A stretch of 47,818 nucleotides of DNA, taken from the NCBI GenBank assembly GCA_021201475.1, contig JAJQEV010000089.1, positions 1 to 47,818 on the forward strand. The letters are read 5' to 3'. This stretch comes from Clostridiales bacterium. GTDB lineage: Bacteria; Bacillota; Clostridia; Oscillospirales; Oscillospiraceae. The notes under the pieces are model-generated. The model was not told the DNA's origin. It saw nothing but the letters and a program-made list of their open reading frames with translations, and made no database searches. Made by a program: the position numbers and the translations under genes. Of the stretch, positions 21,262 to 27,753 are shown piece by piece; position 1 is the stretch's first letter, and each line of letters begins with the position of its first letter.

Positions 21262-21678
21262 TCAGAACCGCTCTCCCCGCTTCACCTTGAGCCGGTTCAT
21301 GGCTCTGGCCAGGTTCGCCTGGGTCAGCCGGTACTCCTGCATCCCCTTGCGCTGGCGCAGCTCCTCCTGCGCCTGCTCATAGGCGCGGCGGGCGCGGGCC
21401 TCGTCAATCTCCTCCGGCCGCTCCGCCGTTTCCACCAGAACCCAAACCCGGTCCCCGTTGACGTGGGCAAAGCCGGCGCCCACAGCGCCGATGCGCGGCT
21501 CCGGCTCCCCCGGCACCCGGAAGCGGAGCATTCCCGGCTCAATGGCTGTCACCAGTTCAGAGTGGCCCGCCAGAACGCCCAACTCGCCGTCCAGGGCGGG
21601 GATGGTCACGCTCTCACAGGGGCCGGTGTAGAACACCCGGTCGGAGGCCAGCACCTCCAGATGAAACTCCGCCGCCAT
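21262..21678 (-). CDS. atpC: ATP synthase F1 epsilon subunit
   Basis: 138 residues. The N-terminal beta-sandwich (residues 1-85; VTIPALDGELGVLAGH is the family signature) is followed by a C-terminal helical hairpin (about 90-135) that in other species can block rotation. It sits at the foot of the central stalk with gamma. Its ATG comes one base after the atpD stop codon and has little ribosome-binding site of its own, so translation is coupled to atpD. It is the last gene of the operon, directly before the terminator at 21208. Confidence 0.95.
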   Translation of the reverse strand: MAAEFHLEVLASDRVFYTGPCESVTIPALDGELGVLAGHSELVTAIEPGMLRFRVPGEPEPRIGAVGAGFAHVNGDRVWVLVETAERPEEIDEARARRAYEQAQEELRQRKGMQEYRLTQANLARAMNRLKVKRGERF

Positions 21679-21679
21679 C

Positions 21680-24003
<2,324 letters not shown>

Positions 24004-24016
24004 AGCGTGCCTCCGC

Positions 24017-25786
24017 TTATACCTGGGCCCCAAGCTGGGACTGAATGAACTCCTTCGCCAGCGCGGCGATCTGCTGCCGCAGGGTAGGGGACATCTCCCT
24101 GCTGCGATCCAGCTCCCGCTGAATCTCACCATGCTGTGCCCGGAACCAGTCCAGCATCTGGGTCTGCATCCCCTTGATGTCCTTTAACGGCACCTCCAGG
24201 AATGCCTGACTCAGGGCGGCCACCAGGGTAATGACCTGGTCGGCCATGGTCAGGGGATGATACAGCGGCTGCTTTAAGAGCTCCATCAGCCCCTCGCCGT
24301 ACACCAGCTGCCGCTTGGTGGTATCGTCCAGGTCGGAGGAGAACTGGGTGAAAATCTCCATCTCCCGATACTGGGCCAGATCAATACGGATGGAGCCGGT
24401 AGCCGTTTTCATGGCCTTGGTCTGGGCTGCGCCGCCCACACGGGACACGGAAAGGCCCACGTTGACGGCGGGCCGCTGCCCGGAGAAGAACAGGTCGGAC
24501 TCCAGGAAGATCTGCCCGTCGGTGATGGAAATGACGTTGGTGGGAATGTAGGCAGACACGTCCCCAGCCTGGGTCTCAATGATGGGCAGGGCCGTGAGGG
24601 AGCCGCCGCCGTTTTCCTTCGACATCTGGGCGCTGCGCTCCAGCAGCCGGGAGTGGAGGTAGAACACGTCGCCGGGATAGGCCTCCCGCCCGGGAGAGCG
24701 ATCCAGCAGCAGCGACAGGGTACGGTAGGCTACCGCGTGCTTGCTCAGGTCGTCGTAGACCATCAACACGTCCTGCCCACTGTGCATAAAATACTCGCCG
24801 ATGGCGGTACCGGCATAAGGGGCAATGTATTGCAGCGGTGCGGAGTCGCTGGCCGTGGCCGCCACCACGATGGAGTAGGATAGGGCGTCGTGCCGCCTCA
24901 GGATGTCCACAATCCGGGCGATGGTGGAGGACTTCTGGCCGATGGCCACATAGATGCAGATGACGTTCTTGTCCTTCTGGTTCAGGATGGTGTCCAGCGC
25001 CAGGGAGGTCTTGCCGGTCTGCCGGTCGCCGATGATCAGCTCACGCTGGCCCCGGCCGATGGGGAACATGGAGTCGATGGCCAGGATGCCCGTCTCCAAC
25101 GGGCGGTTCACGGATTGCCGCTCCACAATGCCCGGCGCAGGGGATTCGACGGGGTAATAACCGTCGGATTGGATGTCGCCCCCGCCGTCGATGGGCGCGC
25201 CCAGGGCGTTCACCACCCGGCCCAGATAGCCCCGGCCCACGGGCACGCCGGCGTTCTTGCCGGTGCGGGCCACCCGGCTGCCCTCGTGGATGTCCAGGTC
25301 ATTGCCGAACAGAATCGCGCCGATTTCGTCCCGGCGAATCTCCTGCACCATGCCCTTGGTGCCGGTATCGAAGAGGATGATTTCGCCATAGGCGGCATGG
25401 TCAATGCCGCTGATGGTGGCGATGCCGTCCCCTACGGTCTTGACGGAGCCCACCTCAGTGTACTCCGCCGTCAGGTCGAACTGCTCCAGCTCCGTTTTCA
25501 GGATGGAAATCAGGTTGTCGTTATTGGGGATATAGGCCGTTTCCAGCTTCTCCCGCAGCTGCTTCAGCCGCCCCTGGGTGGACCAGTCGAACTCCTCGTC
25601 CCCCACCGTCAGACGGAAGCCGGAGCCCAGGGAGGTGTCCTCCACCAGGGTCAGGTCAAGCGTCCCCTCAGGGCAGTGCCGCTGGGCGAAGGCCCGGATG
25701 CCCGCCAATTGGGCCTCGGTGGGTTTCGTCACATAGGTCAGGGTGACGGGGACGCGGCTGCCCGTTTCAGCGGTTTTCTGCGCCAT
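24017..25786 (-). CDS. atpA: ATP synthase F1 alpha subunit with an N-terminal delta/OSCP-like domain
   Basis: 589 residues, about 85 more than typical AtpA (about 500-505). Ordinary alpha sequence begins near residue 88 ([14 protein letters not shown], then [13 protein letters not shown]). It continues through the P-loop GDRQTGKTS near residue 255 and the Arg-finger region, so the core is normal. The extra segment (about 11-83) matches the C-terminal domain of the delta subunit: a [14 protein letters not shown] strand-helix start, a V-x-D-x-S-L-x-x-G-F core ([15 protein letters not shown]) and the closing [10 protein letters not shown] helix. No separate atpH occurs in the operon, although its normal place is between atpF and atpA. 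The ATG at 25786 follows GGGGGAG and overlaps the end of atpF by 20 bases. The fusion reading is inference from motif alignment by eye. Confidence 0.93.
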
Positions 25787-26264
25787 CTAACTCCCCCGCC
25801 TTCTGCAAAAACTGGTCATAGAGGGCGCTGTCGCCCTCCGCGCCTGCACCCGCCACCACCTTGGCGGCGGTGTCCAGCATCAGCTCGGTCAATTCCGTCT
25901 GGGCCTGGCGCAGGATGGCGTCCCGCTCCTGTTGGGCGTCCTGCTCCGCTTCCTTCACAATGCTGTCCGCCTTCTCCTGGGCGTCGCTGAGGATGCGCTC
26001 ATACTCCTCCGTAGCCCGCTGCTGGGCGGTGGCCAGGGTCTTGGCCCGTTCGATGGCCACGTTCTGCTGCTCCTCCAGGCGGGCGCGCTCCAGCGCTTCC
26101 GCGTTGGTCTTGGCTTTCTCCGCGTCAGCCAGACTTTGCTCCACCAACTCCTGCCGCTGCTCCAAAATCTTCTGTACCGGCTTGAACAGGGTGAAGCGCA
26201 GGCCAATGAACAGTACCAGCAGGTTGATTACAGTAAAGATTAAATTATAGTTGACCTCTAGCAC
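25767..26264 (-). CDS. atpF: ATP synthase F0 b subunit
   Basis: 165 residues. One N-terminal membrane helix (about 5-27, [18 protein letters not shown]) is followed by a long charged right-handed coiled coil forming the peripheral stalk, of normal length. No delta domain is fused to it, unlike the mycobacterial b-delta protein. The start is GTG at 26264, preceded by GGGG at 6 bases. It follows atpE by 18 bases, and its end overlaps the atpA start. Its C-terminus would normally dock on delta; here it probably docks on the delta-like head of AtpA. Confidence 0.93.
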
Positions 26265-26282: not shown

Positions 26283-26495
26283 TTACAGTTGGAGGACGCA
26301 GAGCAAGGCGATGACGAAGCCGTAGATGGCCGTTGCCTCTGCCAGCGCGCAGCCGATGATAAGCAGCGTCATAATTTGGCTACTGGCCTCCGGCTGACGG
26401 GCCACTGCGTCCACAGCGTGAGAGGTTGCGAGACCGATGCTGAGCCCTGCGCCTGCACCACACAAAACAGCGATTGCTGCACCAATTGCGAGCAT
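26283..26495 (-). CDS. atpE: ATP synthase F0 c subunit
   Basis: 70 residues in two membrane helices joined by the polar loop ARQPE (residues 33-37). The ion-carrying Glu is in ALAEATAIYG in the second helix. The Gln found at the matching position of the first helix in sodium-type rings is Ile here (GLSIGLATS), and the residue after the Glu is Ala rather than Ser, so proton coupling is more likely than sodium coupling. AAAGGAG lies 9 bases upstream of the ATG. A gap of 104 bases separates it from the DUF1622 gene. Confidence 0.95.
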   Translation of the reverse strand: MLAIGAAIAVLCGAGAGLSIGLATSHAVDAVARQPEASSQIMTLLIIGCALAEATAIYGFVIALLCVLQL

Positions 26496-26599: not shown

Positions 26600-26938
26600 C
26601 TAGTCAACCTTGGTCTCCTCCCGCTCCTCCTTGATTTCCCAATGAATCAGGAAGGTCAGCGCCGCCCGGAGGGCGATGATCCCGGCCACGGTCAGGATCT
26701 CCGTCCACTCCCGCACGACCACTGTGCGGAGGATCTCGCTGCCCAGCTTGAACTCCAGCCCGGTGGCAAAGCCCTGGGCCAGCTTCAGAACCGTTCTGGG
26801 ATTCCGGCGCACATAGTTGTAAACGCCCTGGGCCCCGGAGATGATAATGACGGTCACGCCGACGATTTCAAACAGGATAATCGCAAGCTCCGCCACCTCG
26901 TTCAAGATGGTTTCCATAAAGGTGATGACAGCGTCCAT
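26600..26938 (-). CDS. DUF1622-type membrane protein inside the atp operon
   Basis: 112 residues with three hydrophobic segments (about 12-38, 57-75 as an amphipathic stretch around GLEFKLGSEILRTVV, and 80-100). The pattern, a first helix ending in G-x-x-x-Y-x-x-R-R, then LxLGLEF-like and I-x-R-x-x-L-x-F-x-I-x-W-E-I motifs, fits the DUF1622 family, whose function is unknown. It lies between atpB and atpE on the same strand with gaps of 85 and 104 bases, so it must be transcribed with ATP synthase. In other genomes atpI-like proteins assist c-ring assembly or Mg/Ca transport from a place upstream of atpB; this protein is not AtpI. A role in F0 assembly is an inference. The ribosome-binding site (AAGGCG) is weak. 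Confidence 0.8.
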   Translation of the reverse strand: MDAVITFMETILNEVAELAIILFEIVGVTVIIISGAQGVYNYVRRNPRTVLKLAQGFATGLEFKLGSEILRTVVVREWTEILTVAGIIALRAALTFLIHWEIKEEREETKVD

Positions 26939-27023: not shown

Positions 27024-27698
27024 TCACTCGATGGCTTCCTTGATGTAAATGCTGGTCAGGAACACAAAGACATACGCCTGGAGGATGCCGTCGAAGATGT
27101 CGAAATACAGGCTGGCAATCATGGGGAACACCGCCGGCACCACCGCCTCGATGAGCTTCATGATGACGAATGCGCCCAGCACGTTGCCGAAGAGCCGCAT
27201 ACACAGGGACAGGGGCCGGGTAATCAAATCCAGGATGTTGAAGGGAACCACCACTGGCACCGGCTCAAGAAAGCTGTGAAGCCAGCCCTTCGTTCCCCTG
27301 GCTCGGATGGACGCCACCTGTACCAGAACGATGCTCATCACCGCCAGGGCGATGGTGACGTTCAAGTCCTTGGTGGGGGGCTTGAAGCCGAAGATGCCAA
27401 TGAGGTTGGCAAACCCGATGTACAGCAGCACCGTGATGAGATAGGGGACATAGCTGCGGCCTTCCTCCCCCACCATATCGGTGACGATGTCCTCCAACTT
27501 GGTCACGCAGAACTCCACCGCCGCCTGCCGCTTGCCGATGTCCCGCACCTTCAGGTTGCGGGTCAGCAGAAAGCTGCCCAGCAGCAGCACCGCCATGATG
27601 ATCCACGTCACCACAGTGGATTCCAGGATGTCTATCCCGCCGATGGAAAAGGCGATTTCACAGTTCAACTCCTCCATGACCTTTTCCGCAATGCTCAT
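27024..27698 (-). CDS. atpB: ATP synthase F0 a subunit
   Basis: 224 residues with five or six membrane helices. The essential Arg lies in RPLSLCMRLFGNVLGAF near residue 157. The C-terminal helix pair ends in FLTSIYIKEAIE, as in other bacteria. The start at 27698 (MSIAEKVMEEL) is preferred; the frame runs further upstream through the leader hairpin but has no better site. AAAGGA lies about 12 bases upstream. It is the first gene of the operon; atpI is not seen upstream. Confidence 0.95.
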   Translation of the reverse strand: MSIAEKVMEELNCEIAFSIGGIDILESTVVTWIIMAVLLLGSFLLTRNLKVRDIGKRQAAVEFCVTKLEDIVTDMVGEEGRSYVPYLITVLLYIGFANLIGIFGFKPPTKDLNVTIALAVMSIVLVQVASIRARGTKGWLHSFLEPVPVVVPFNILDLITRPLSLCMRLFGNVLGAFVIMKLIEAVVPAVFPMIASLYFDIFDGILQAYVFVFLTSIYIKEAIE

Positions 27699-27726
27699 AT
27701 CTTTTTCACTTCCTTTATTCTGGTTT

Positions 27727-27753
27727 TTTGCGCAACGCCCCGCGTTGCGCAAA
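27727..27753 (-). promoter_or_regulatory. Strong leader hairpin upstream of atpB
   Basis: A perfect 12-bp stem, TTTGCGCAACGC/GCGTTGCGCAAA, with a 3-base loop lies in the 5' leader between the promoter and the atpB ribosome-binding site. No T run follows it on the minus strand, so it is not a classical terminator. It may stabilise the long atp mRNA or tune translation of atpB. Confidence 0.7.

Follow-up and report, generated by a model that had tools for sequence, protein, structure and literature searches.

An ATP synthase alpha subunit fused to the C-terminal domain of delta/OSCP in an Oscillospiraceae genome, and its possible bearing on peripheral stalk number

The atpA gene, encoding the alpha subunit of an F-type ATP synthase, was analyzed on a 47,818-nucleotide stretch of DNA from a Clostridiales bacterium of the family Oscillospiraceae (contig JAJQEV010000089.1 of assembly GCA_021201475.1; the whole stretch is referred to as the window). 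From the list of open reading frames and the profile matches, atpA was located on the minus strand at positions 24017..25786, with GGCGGGGGAG just 5' of its ATG start codon, and its product of 589 amino acids (aa) was found to be a fusion of the C-terminal domain of the delta subunit (deltaCTD) to alpha. The delta/OSCP head is encoded at 25544..25777, the alpha subunit proper, which has kept its N-terminal helix, at 24020..25522, and the short linker that connects this helix to the head at 25523..25543; there was no in-frame ATG, GTG or TTG around the junction. An earlier note, made by eye from the sequence, had described about 85 extra N-terminal residues on AtpA and had equated residues 11-83 with the C-terminal domain of delta. 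The NCBIfam atpA profile covered residues 89-583, and the extension therefore amounted to 88 residues. The head feature corresponded to positions 95-172 of the PF00213 (OSCP) profile; when the head was searched in isolation, residues 5-81 aligned with positions 96-172 of 172 (E = 1.3e-7) with a score of 32.3 bits, the cut-off being 22.3. The delta motifs D-x-S-L-x-x-G-F and G-R-L-x-x-L were present in the head, as had been stated.

The C-terminal beta-alpha domain of PF00213 was recognized both by the profile match and in the predicted fold, and in a structure comparison the predicted head resembled delta/OSCP chains of ATP synthases. No match to positions 1-94 of PF00213, which correspond to the N-terminal helical domain of delta, was obtained anywhere in the genome at E≤10, in keeping with the reported absence of that domain. 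The AtpA head is thus the C-terminal domain of delta/OSCP only, and not a whole member of the PF00213 family. The top structural matches of the full-length AtpA model (mean predicted local distance difference test score of 73, with some stretches low) were three chains of PDB 9jc1, with 48-49% identity in the structural alignment, and a profile of fused alpha subunits aligned with 9jc1 positions 11-571 of 583. Among 72 aligned heads G56 was invariant and P22, F57, D67, G72 and R73 were each conserved in at least 90%. Ratios of nonsynonymous to synonymous substitution rates (dN/dS), computed on a codon alignment of six close relatives (15 pairs), were 0.167 for the head, 0.136 for residues 83-110 and 0.100 for the remainder, which indicates that purifying selection acts on both the head and the alpha core. 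The alpha motifs were invariant in 41 aligned fused alphas; the alpha N-terminal helix was more variable in the fused rows, a set that was also more diverse. The fusion is real and well conserved, and it was correctly identified in the earlier note.

The gene order of the operon, established by homology, was atpB - DUF1622 - atpE - atpF - atpA - atpG - atpD - atpC, all on the minus strand, and the genes of the operon gave full Pfam matches. As had been noted previously, the operon has no atpH between atpF and atpA, and the b subunit gene is unfused: atpF (25767..26264) overlaps atpA by 20 bases and encodes 165 aa, for which PF00430 was the sole match over a cut-off and no OSCP match was found. 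The tail of b (25791..25823) is of the type that is retained where the deltaCTD lies on another chain. The remaining genes were atpE (c subunit, 70 aa; 26283..26495), atpB (a subunit, start approximate; 27024..27752), which gave one match in the whole genome, atpG (gamma, start MANAREIK inferred inside a longer frame; 23089..24003), atpD (beta, start uncertain; 21680..23278) and atpC (epsilon; 21262..21678), the product of which retains its C-terminal helix domain (PF00401). A DUF1622 gene (26600..26938) lies between atpB and atpE and was found, among the loci compared, only in the window and in 13 loci of close relatives.

The source genome is a draft of 129 contigs that is listed as 100% complete. 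The AtpA head was the single OSCP match in the whole genome, at E≤0.001 and at E≤10, and neither a separate atpH nor a delta N-terminal domain was found elsewhere in it at E≤10. Both checks by which the earlier note could have been refuted (a structural match of the head to delta/OSCP, a complete atpH elsewhere in the genome) left its reading of the head standing. Two distant relatives of F1 alpha/beta on another contig are presumably A/V-type subunits, judging from 27% similarity and their frame lengths. The genome also encodes an rnfC homologue (E = 1.3e-149), which would suit a life on small ion gradients; this is context and not proof. AtpE lacks two features of Na+-type c subunits, a Gln in helix 1 and a Ser that follows the key Glu, and H+ is therefore the likelier coupling ion.

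Within the genus, an OSCP match was found in 23 of 32 genomes (21 above the cut-off). All but one of the 23 started at profile position 93 or later, the other at position 73, and none was a whole delta; wherever a genome of the genus has an OSCP match, it is the C-terminal part only. Open frames of 589-635 aa contained 18 of these matches, and the other five lay in frames of 100-507 aa that were broken or cut. No F-type alpha was found in the remaining nine genomes (two of them 76 and 80% complete), where the best alpha match had an E value of 2.7e-28 at 28-29% identity, so that the F-type enzyme is dispensable in the genus. In the family, a fused alpha was indicated in 68 of 141 genomes (150 alpha rows) among the matches listed, to about E = 1e-155; this tally used frame length and query start alone and left nine long frames unclear. 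At least seven of 398 genomes of the phylum besides that of the window had a fused alpha, among matches listed down to about E = 4.5e-180, so that the arrangement is rarer there than in the family; in all seven the OSCP match lay within the fused frame, one of them below the family cut-off. One of these, G294, is a one-contig genome from another class of the phylum, in which a deltaCTD-alpha fusion is the sole OSCP match at E≤0.05. Given the frames in the genus and in G294, the fusion is not a lone assembly accident. Five further long frames (G413, G527, G330, G400 and G226) were rejected as fusions since ordinary separate deltas were present, and a sixth (G552) proved to be a b-delta frame instead. 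A second F-type alpha accompanied the fused one in G070, G118, G155, G180, G039 and G182, and a whole separate delta was present elsewhere in the genome in G405, G478 and G635.

The named loci compared, 80 in all, were the top-ranking ones among 354 relatives and hence no census (one of the six search patterns sits in the head); they comprised 57 deltaCTD-alpha fusions, six full delta-alpha fusions, 16 separate deltas and one broken frame. Among records not marked as metagenome-assembled genomes (MAGs), the full fusion occurred in Anaerosacchariphilus polymeriproducens and Parasporobacterium paucivorans, and the CTD-only fusion in Floccifex porci, Helcococcus sueciensis, Lachnospiraceae NE2001 and AC2031, and Lachnoclostridium An181. 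In the Helcococcus locus L093 the head was detected only at a looser cut-off and not at 1e-5.

The relatives form a graded series of architectures: full delta-alpha fusions, tandem heads, stand-alone mini-deltas, b-deltaCTD and b-deltaCTD-alpha. In genomes of the family, two tandem delta C-terminal domains precede alpha in L128:4041-6068, stand-alone deltaCTD genes of 72-81 aa lie between atpF and atpA in L177-L180 and L195, and b-deltaCTD accompanies a plain alpha in L132-L134. Nine different b-deltaCTD-alpha chains (L129, L130, L131, L145 and L181-L185), 736-812 aa long when counted from the first start codon, adjoin a second b gene. Pfam recognized the OSCP C-terminal and alpha domains in all four of the chains scanned and PF00430 (b) in three of them; a custom b profile detected the b part in seven of the nine, and all nine had a b-like hydrophobic start. 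As predicted from their sequences, these chains would give every alpha its own membrane anchor. No paper on the forms of this series turned up, in a literature search that covered them little and was not aimed at b-deltaCTD-alpha chains, tandem heads or mini-deltas.

Several other arrangements were observed in these relatives. The one-contig genome G116 has the operon in two copies, the second of which (L147) has a broken alpha frame. Gamma and beta share one unbroken frame of 766-767 aa in L132:4067-6367, L133:6573-8876 and L134 2969-5272 (minus-strand count), with both PF00231 and PF00006 present in the two frames scanned; because AAGGAGGCGAA and an ATG/TTG are conserved at the junction, these frames are predicted to yield free beta as well as a rotor-stator gamma-beta chain. 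In L202:2616-3662, the second half of a 348-aa frame after atpE is a full delta; no separate b was found there, and the frame is a probable b-delta fusion in Bacillota. In L207:3089-5111 no delta was found between b and a headless alpha of 522 aa; a full delta lies on another contig.

Comparison of the b tails across this series bears on the docking partner of the head. It is established that b touches delta via its C-terminal region (PMC6131620), and that the alpha N-terminal helix binds delta in ordinary enzymes (PMC6131620, PMC12229609). By motif comparison, AtpF has a tail of the delta-binding kind. The motif ended b in 30 of 36 separate-delta rows, 12 of 14 full fusions, 67 of 79 deltaCTD-alpha rows and five of six mini-delta rows, but in none of the nine separate b genes beside b-deltaCTD-alpha and none of the three b-deltaCTD rows; shuffled b tails gave 0.1-1.8 per class. 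This wider motif was chosen after inspection of the tails missed by a narrower one, which was found in 28/79 deltaCTD-alpha, 11/14 full-fusion, 14/15 near separate-delta and 4/21 other separate-delta rows. Three loci (L007, L009 and L023), broken frames that had been mislabelled as b-deltaCTD or mini-deltas, were excluded from the tail and alpha-helix comparisons. The tail is kept if the delta domain is on another chain and missing if b carries the domain, and this pattern supports docking of the head on b. That the AtpA head docks the b2 dimer is, on these grounds, very likely.

In an alpha tree (FastTree, 151 rows, the three mislabelled loci included) the seven architecture labels needed at least 20 changes, compared to 66 when shuffled; one broken frame in the set (L151, from G005) had been classed as separate by the script. 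A single origin of the fused alphas, as one clade, was rejected by the approximately unbiased test (p = 1.8e-125) on a tree of 81 rows, thinned from 147 after exclusion of L007, L009, L023 and L147. The test used a quick LG+G4 model and groups that had been defined with an earlier tree already known, and it does not distinguish gain from loss. Genomes of the genus were scattered over different parts of the alpha tree, which suggests horizontal movement. The ratio of N- to C-terminal identity in delta was 0.77 in the 14 full-fusion rows (80/91 pairs) compared to 0.90 in 36 separate rows (363/630 pairs), a weak sign of decay of the delta N-terminal domain in the full fusions that is not used as proof. 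The graded series of architectures suggests that the delta C-terminal domain has been relocated repeatedly, in most cases unaccompanied by the N-terminal domain that breaks the symmetry.

The earlier note had regarded the alpha-delta arrangement as undescribed. That claim fails because the same layout was reported by Ueno et al. in 2025 (PMC12229609), who removed the N-terminal domain from the delta subunit of Bacillus PS3 FoF1 and attached the remaining C-terminal domain to alpha. The engineered enzyme had as many as three b2 stalks and three a-subunits, with a mean of two; some classes in cryo-electron microscopy (cryo-EM) were one-stalk and three-stalk particles were very rare. Its H+/ATP ratio was 5.8 compared to 3.0, ATP synthesis required only half the proton-motive force, and pumping driven by ATP was reduced. 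According to these authors, the delta N-terminal domain restricts ordinary enzymes to one stalk. They also noted a natural delta-alpha fusion without that domain in Acidaminococcus fermentans, and 'similar features' in UniProt G4Q3K6 and A0A1I2C5T3; by the paper's description these are the same natural fusion in other organisms, to which the phylum cases G294, G336 and G427, from another class, may be related. No other paper on an alpha-delta fusion was found, in a search that excluded preprints and most subscription journals.

As in the engineered PS3 enzyme (9jc1), the window's deltaCTD is joined in frame to the alpha N-terminus via a short linker, one per alpha and hence in three copies, there is no delta N-terminal domain or other delta gene, and b is unfused with a tail of the delta-binding kind. 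The two differ in that the PS3 fusion was engineered and its epsilon C-terminal domain was also removed, whereas the fusion in the window is natural and that domain is kept; the stalk number given above was measured in the PS3 enzyme. The mycobacterial b-delta fusion (PDB 7jg5 and others; PMC5709465) likewise joins delta to a neighbouring subunit, but places it on b, whereas here the deltaCTD is on alpha. The N-ATPase has no delta gene, is prone to horizontal transfer and has a longer b subunit (PMC5706428); its b of about 250 aa and beta-epsilon-first order differ from the 165 aa and the a-c-b-alpha-gamma-beta-epsilon order of the window, and the window alpha scored 589 bits against N-ATPase model TIGR03324, below the cut-off of 750.5. 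Six entries for Chloroflexus aurantiacus (PDB 9itj-9itu) contain 12 delta and 18 alpha chains, and this 2:3 ratio suggests a natural F-type enzyme with two stalks; its delta is a separate chain of 157 aa, unlike the fusion described here. The literature search found no paper on these structures.

In ordinary F-type enzymes the delta C-terminal domain holds the b dimer by its C-terminal ends, and the delta N-terminal domain, located on the symmetry axis atop F1, binds the N-termini of the alpha subunits. These enzymes are regarded as having a single peripheral stalk and a single a-subunit, and H+/ATP therefore follows the size of the c-ring. In the window enzyme the delta C-terminal domain is covalently attached to every alpha, where it would serve as a stalk dock; the N-terminal domain would be superfluous for attachment and is gone. 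The head would dock the C-terminal ends of the b2 dimer, and without the symmetry-breaking domain more than one and up to three b2 stalks could assemble, each bringing an a-subunit. Protons per ATP would then rise, as in the engineered enzyme, where they were doubled on average and could be threefold at most. Such a 'low gear' would permit ATP synthesis at a small proton-motive force, or reverse pumping of many H+ per ATP against a small gradient. The earlier note had pictured three heads facing one b-dimer; by analogy with the PS3 enzyme, in which each head can take its own b2 and a-subunit, this is probably wrong, and the puzzle may be solved because more than one b dimer is possible. We consider it probable that the fused AtpA is an alpha with its own stalk dock in an enzyme that is, by analogy, multi-stalk. 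That the window enzyme itself carries more than one and up to three b2 stalks, with a raised H+/ATP, is slightly favoured. A multi-stalk enzyme is inferred more strongly for the b-deltaCTD-alpha clade, because there the chain fixes one anchor per alpha.

It is quite possible, if doubtful, that the enzyme is instead single-stalk, one of the three heads holding a lone b2 and the other two being empty or packed on F1; the fusion would then be just a covalent substitute for delta. In the operon atpB and atpF are each present once, stalk count is not encoded by any sequence feature and b ends in a tail of the usual type; moreover, cryo-EM of the engineered enzyme gave some one-stalk classes and very few three-stalk particles (PMC12229609). 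On the other hand, removal of the N-terminal domain plus fusion sufficed in that enzyme for extra stalks and a doubled H+/ATP (PMC12229609), and the b-deltaCTD-alpha chains of relatives place an anchor on each alpha. One dock would also result if an internal start or proteolysis yielded an ordinary alpha and a small free delta domain. Stand-alone deltaCTD genes of relatives indicate that a free domain can be its own gene, and some in-frame ATG, GTG or TTG lies near the junction in 67/79 deltaCTD-alpha rows, but the window junction has none, and an ATG with a loosely defined Shine-Dalgarno sequence was present in only 7/79 deltaCTD-alpha and 1/14 full-fusion rows. The gamma-beta frame of relatives, by contrast, has a conserved internal start, and separate products of atpA are very improbable.

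A further explanation is that the operon is in decay or has no function, or that the fusion arose in assembly, and the draft state of the genome, the broken atpA frames in four related loci (L007, L009, L023 and L151) and the lack of the enzyme in 9/32 genus genomes could be read in this way. Such an explanation is scarcely credible in view of the purifying selection on head and core, the invariant motifs of the 41 fused alphas, the full Pfam matches of the operon genes, and the recurrence of the layout both in a genome of one contig and in records without a MAG label.

The AtpA of the window adds to an arrangement noted in print in 2025 and places it inside a far wider series of architectures. 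That natural low-gear rotary ATPases exist, with H+/ATP set by stalk number and not by c-ring size alone, is an evenly balanced prospect. This natural enzyme has the same design from which a multi-stalk enzyme was obtained by engineering, and the existence and purpose of natural multi-stalk ATP synthases are therefore directly testable, also in cultivated relatives. The b-deltaCTD-alpha chains would decide stalk number by covalent arithmetic.
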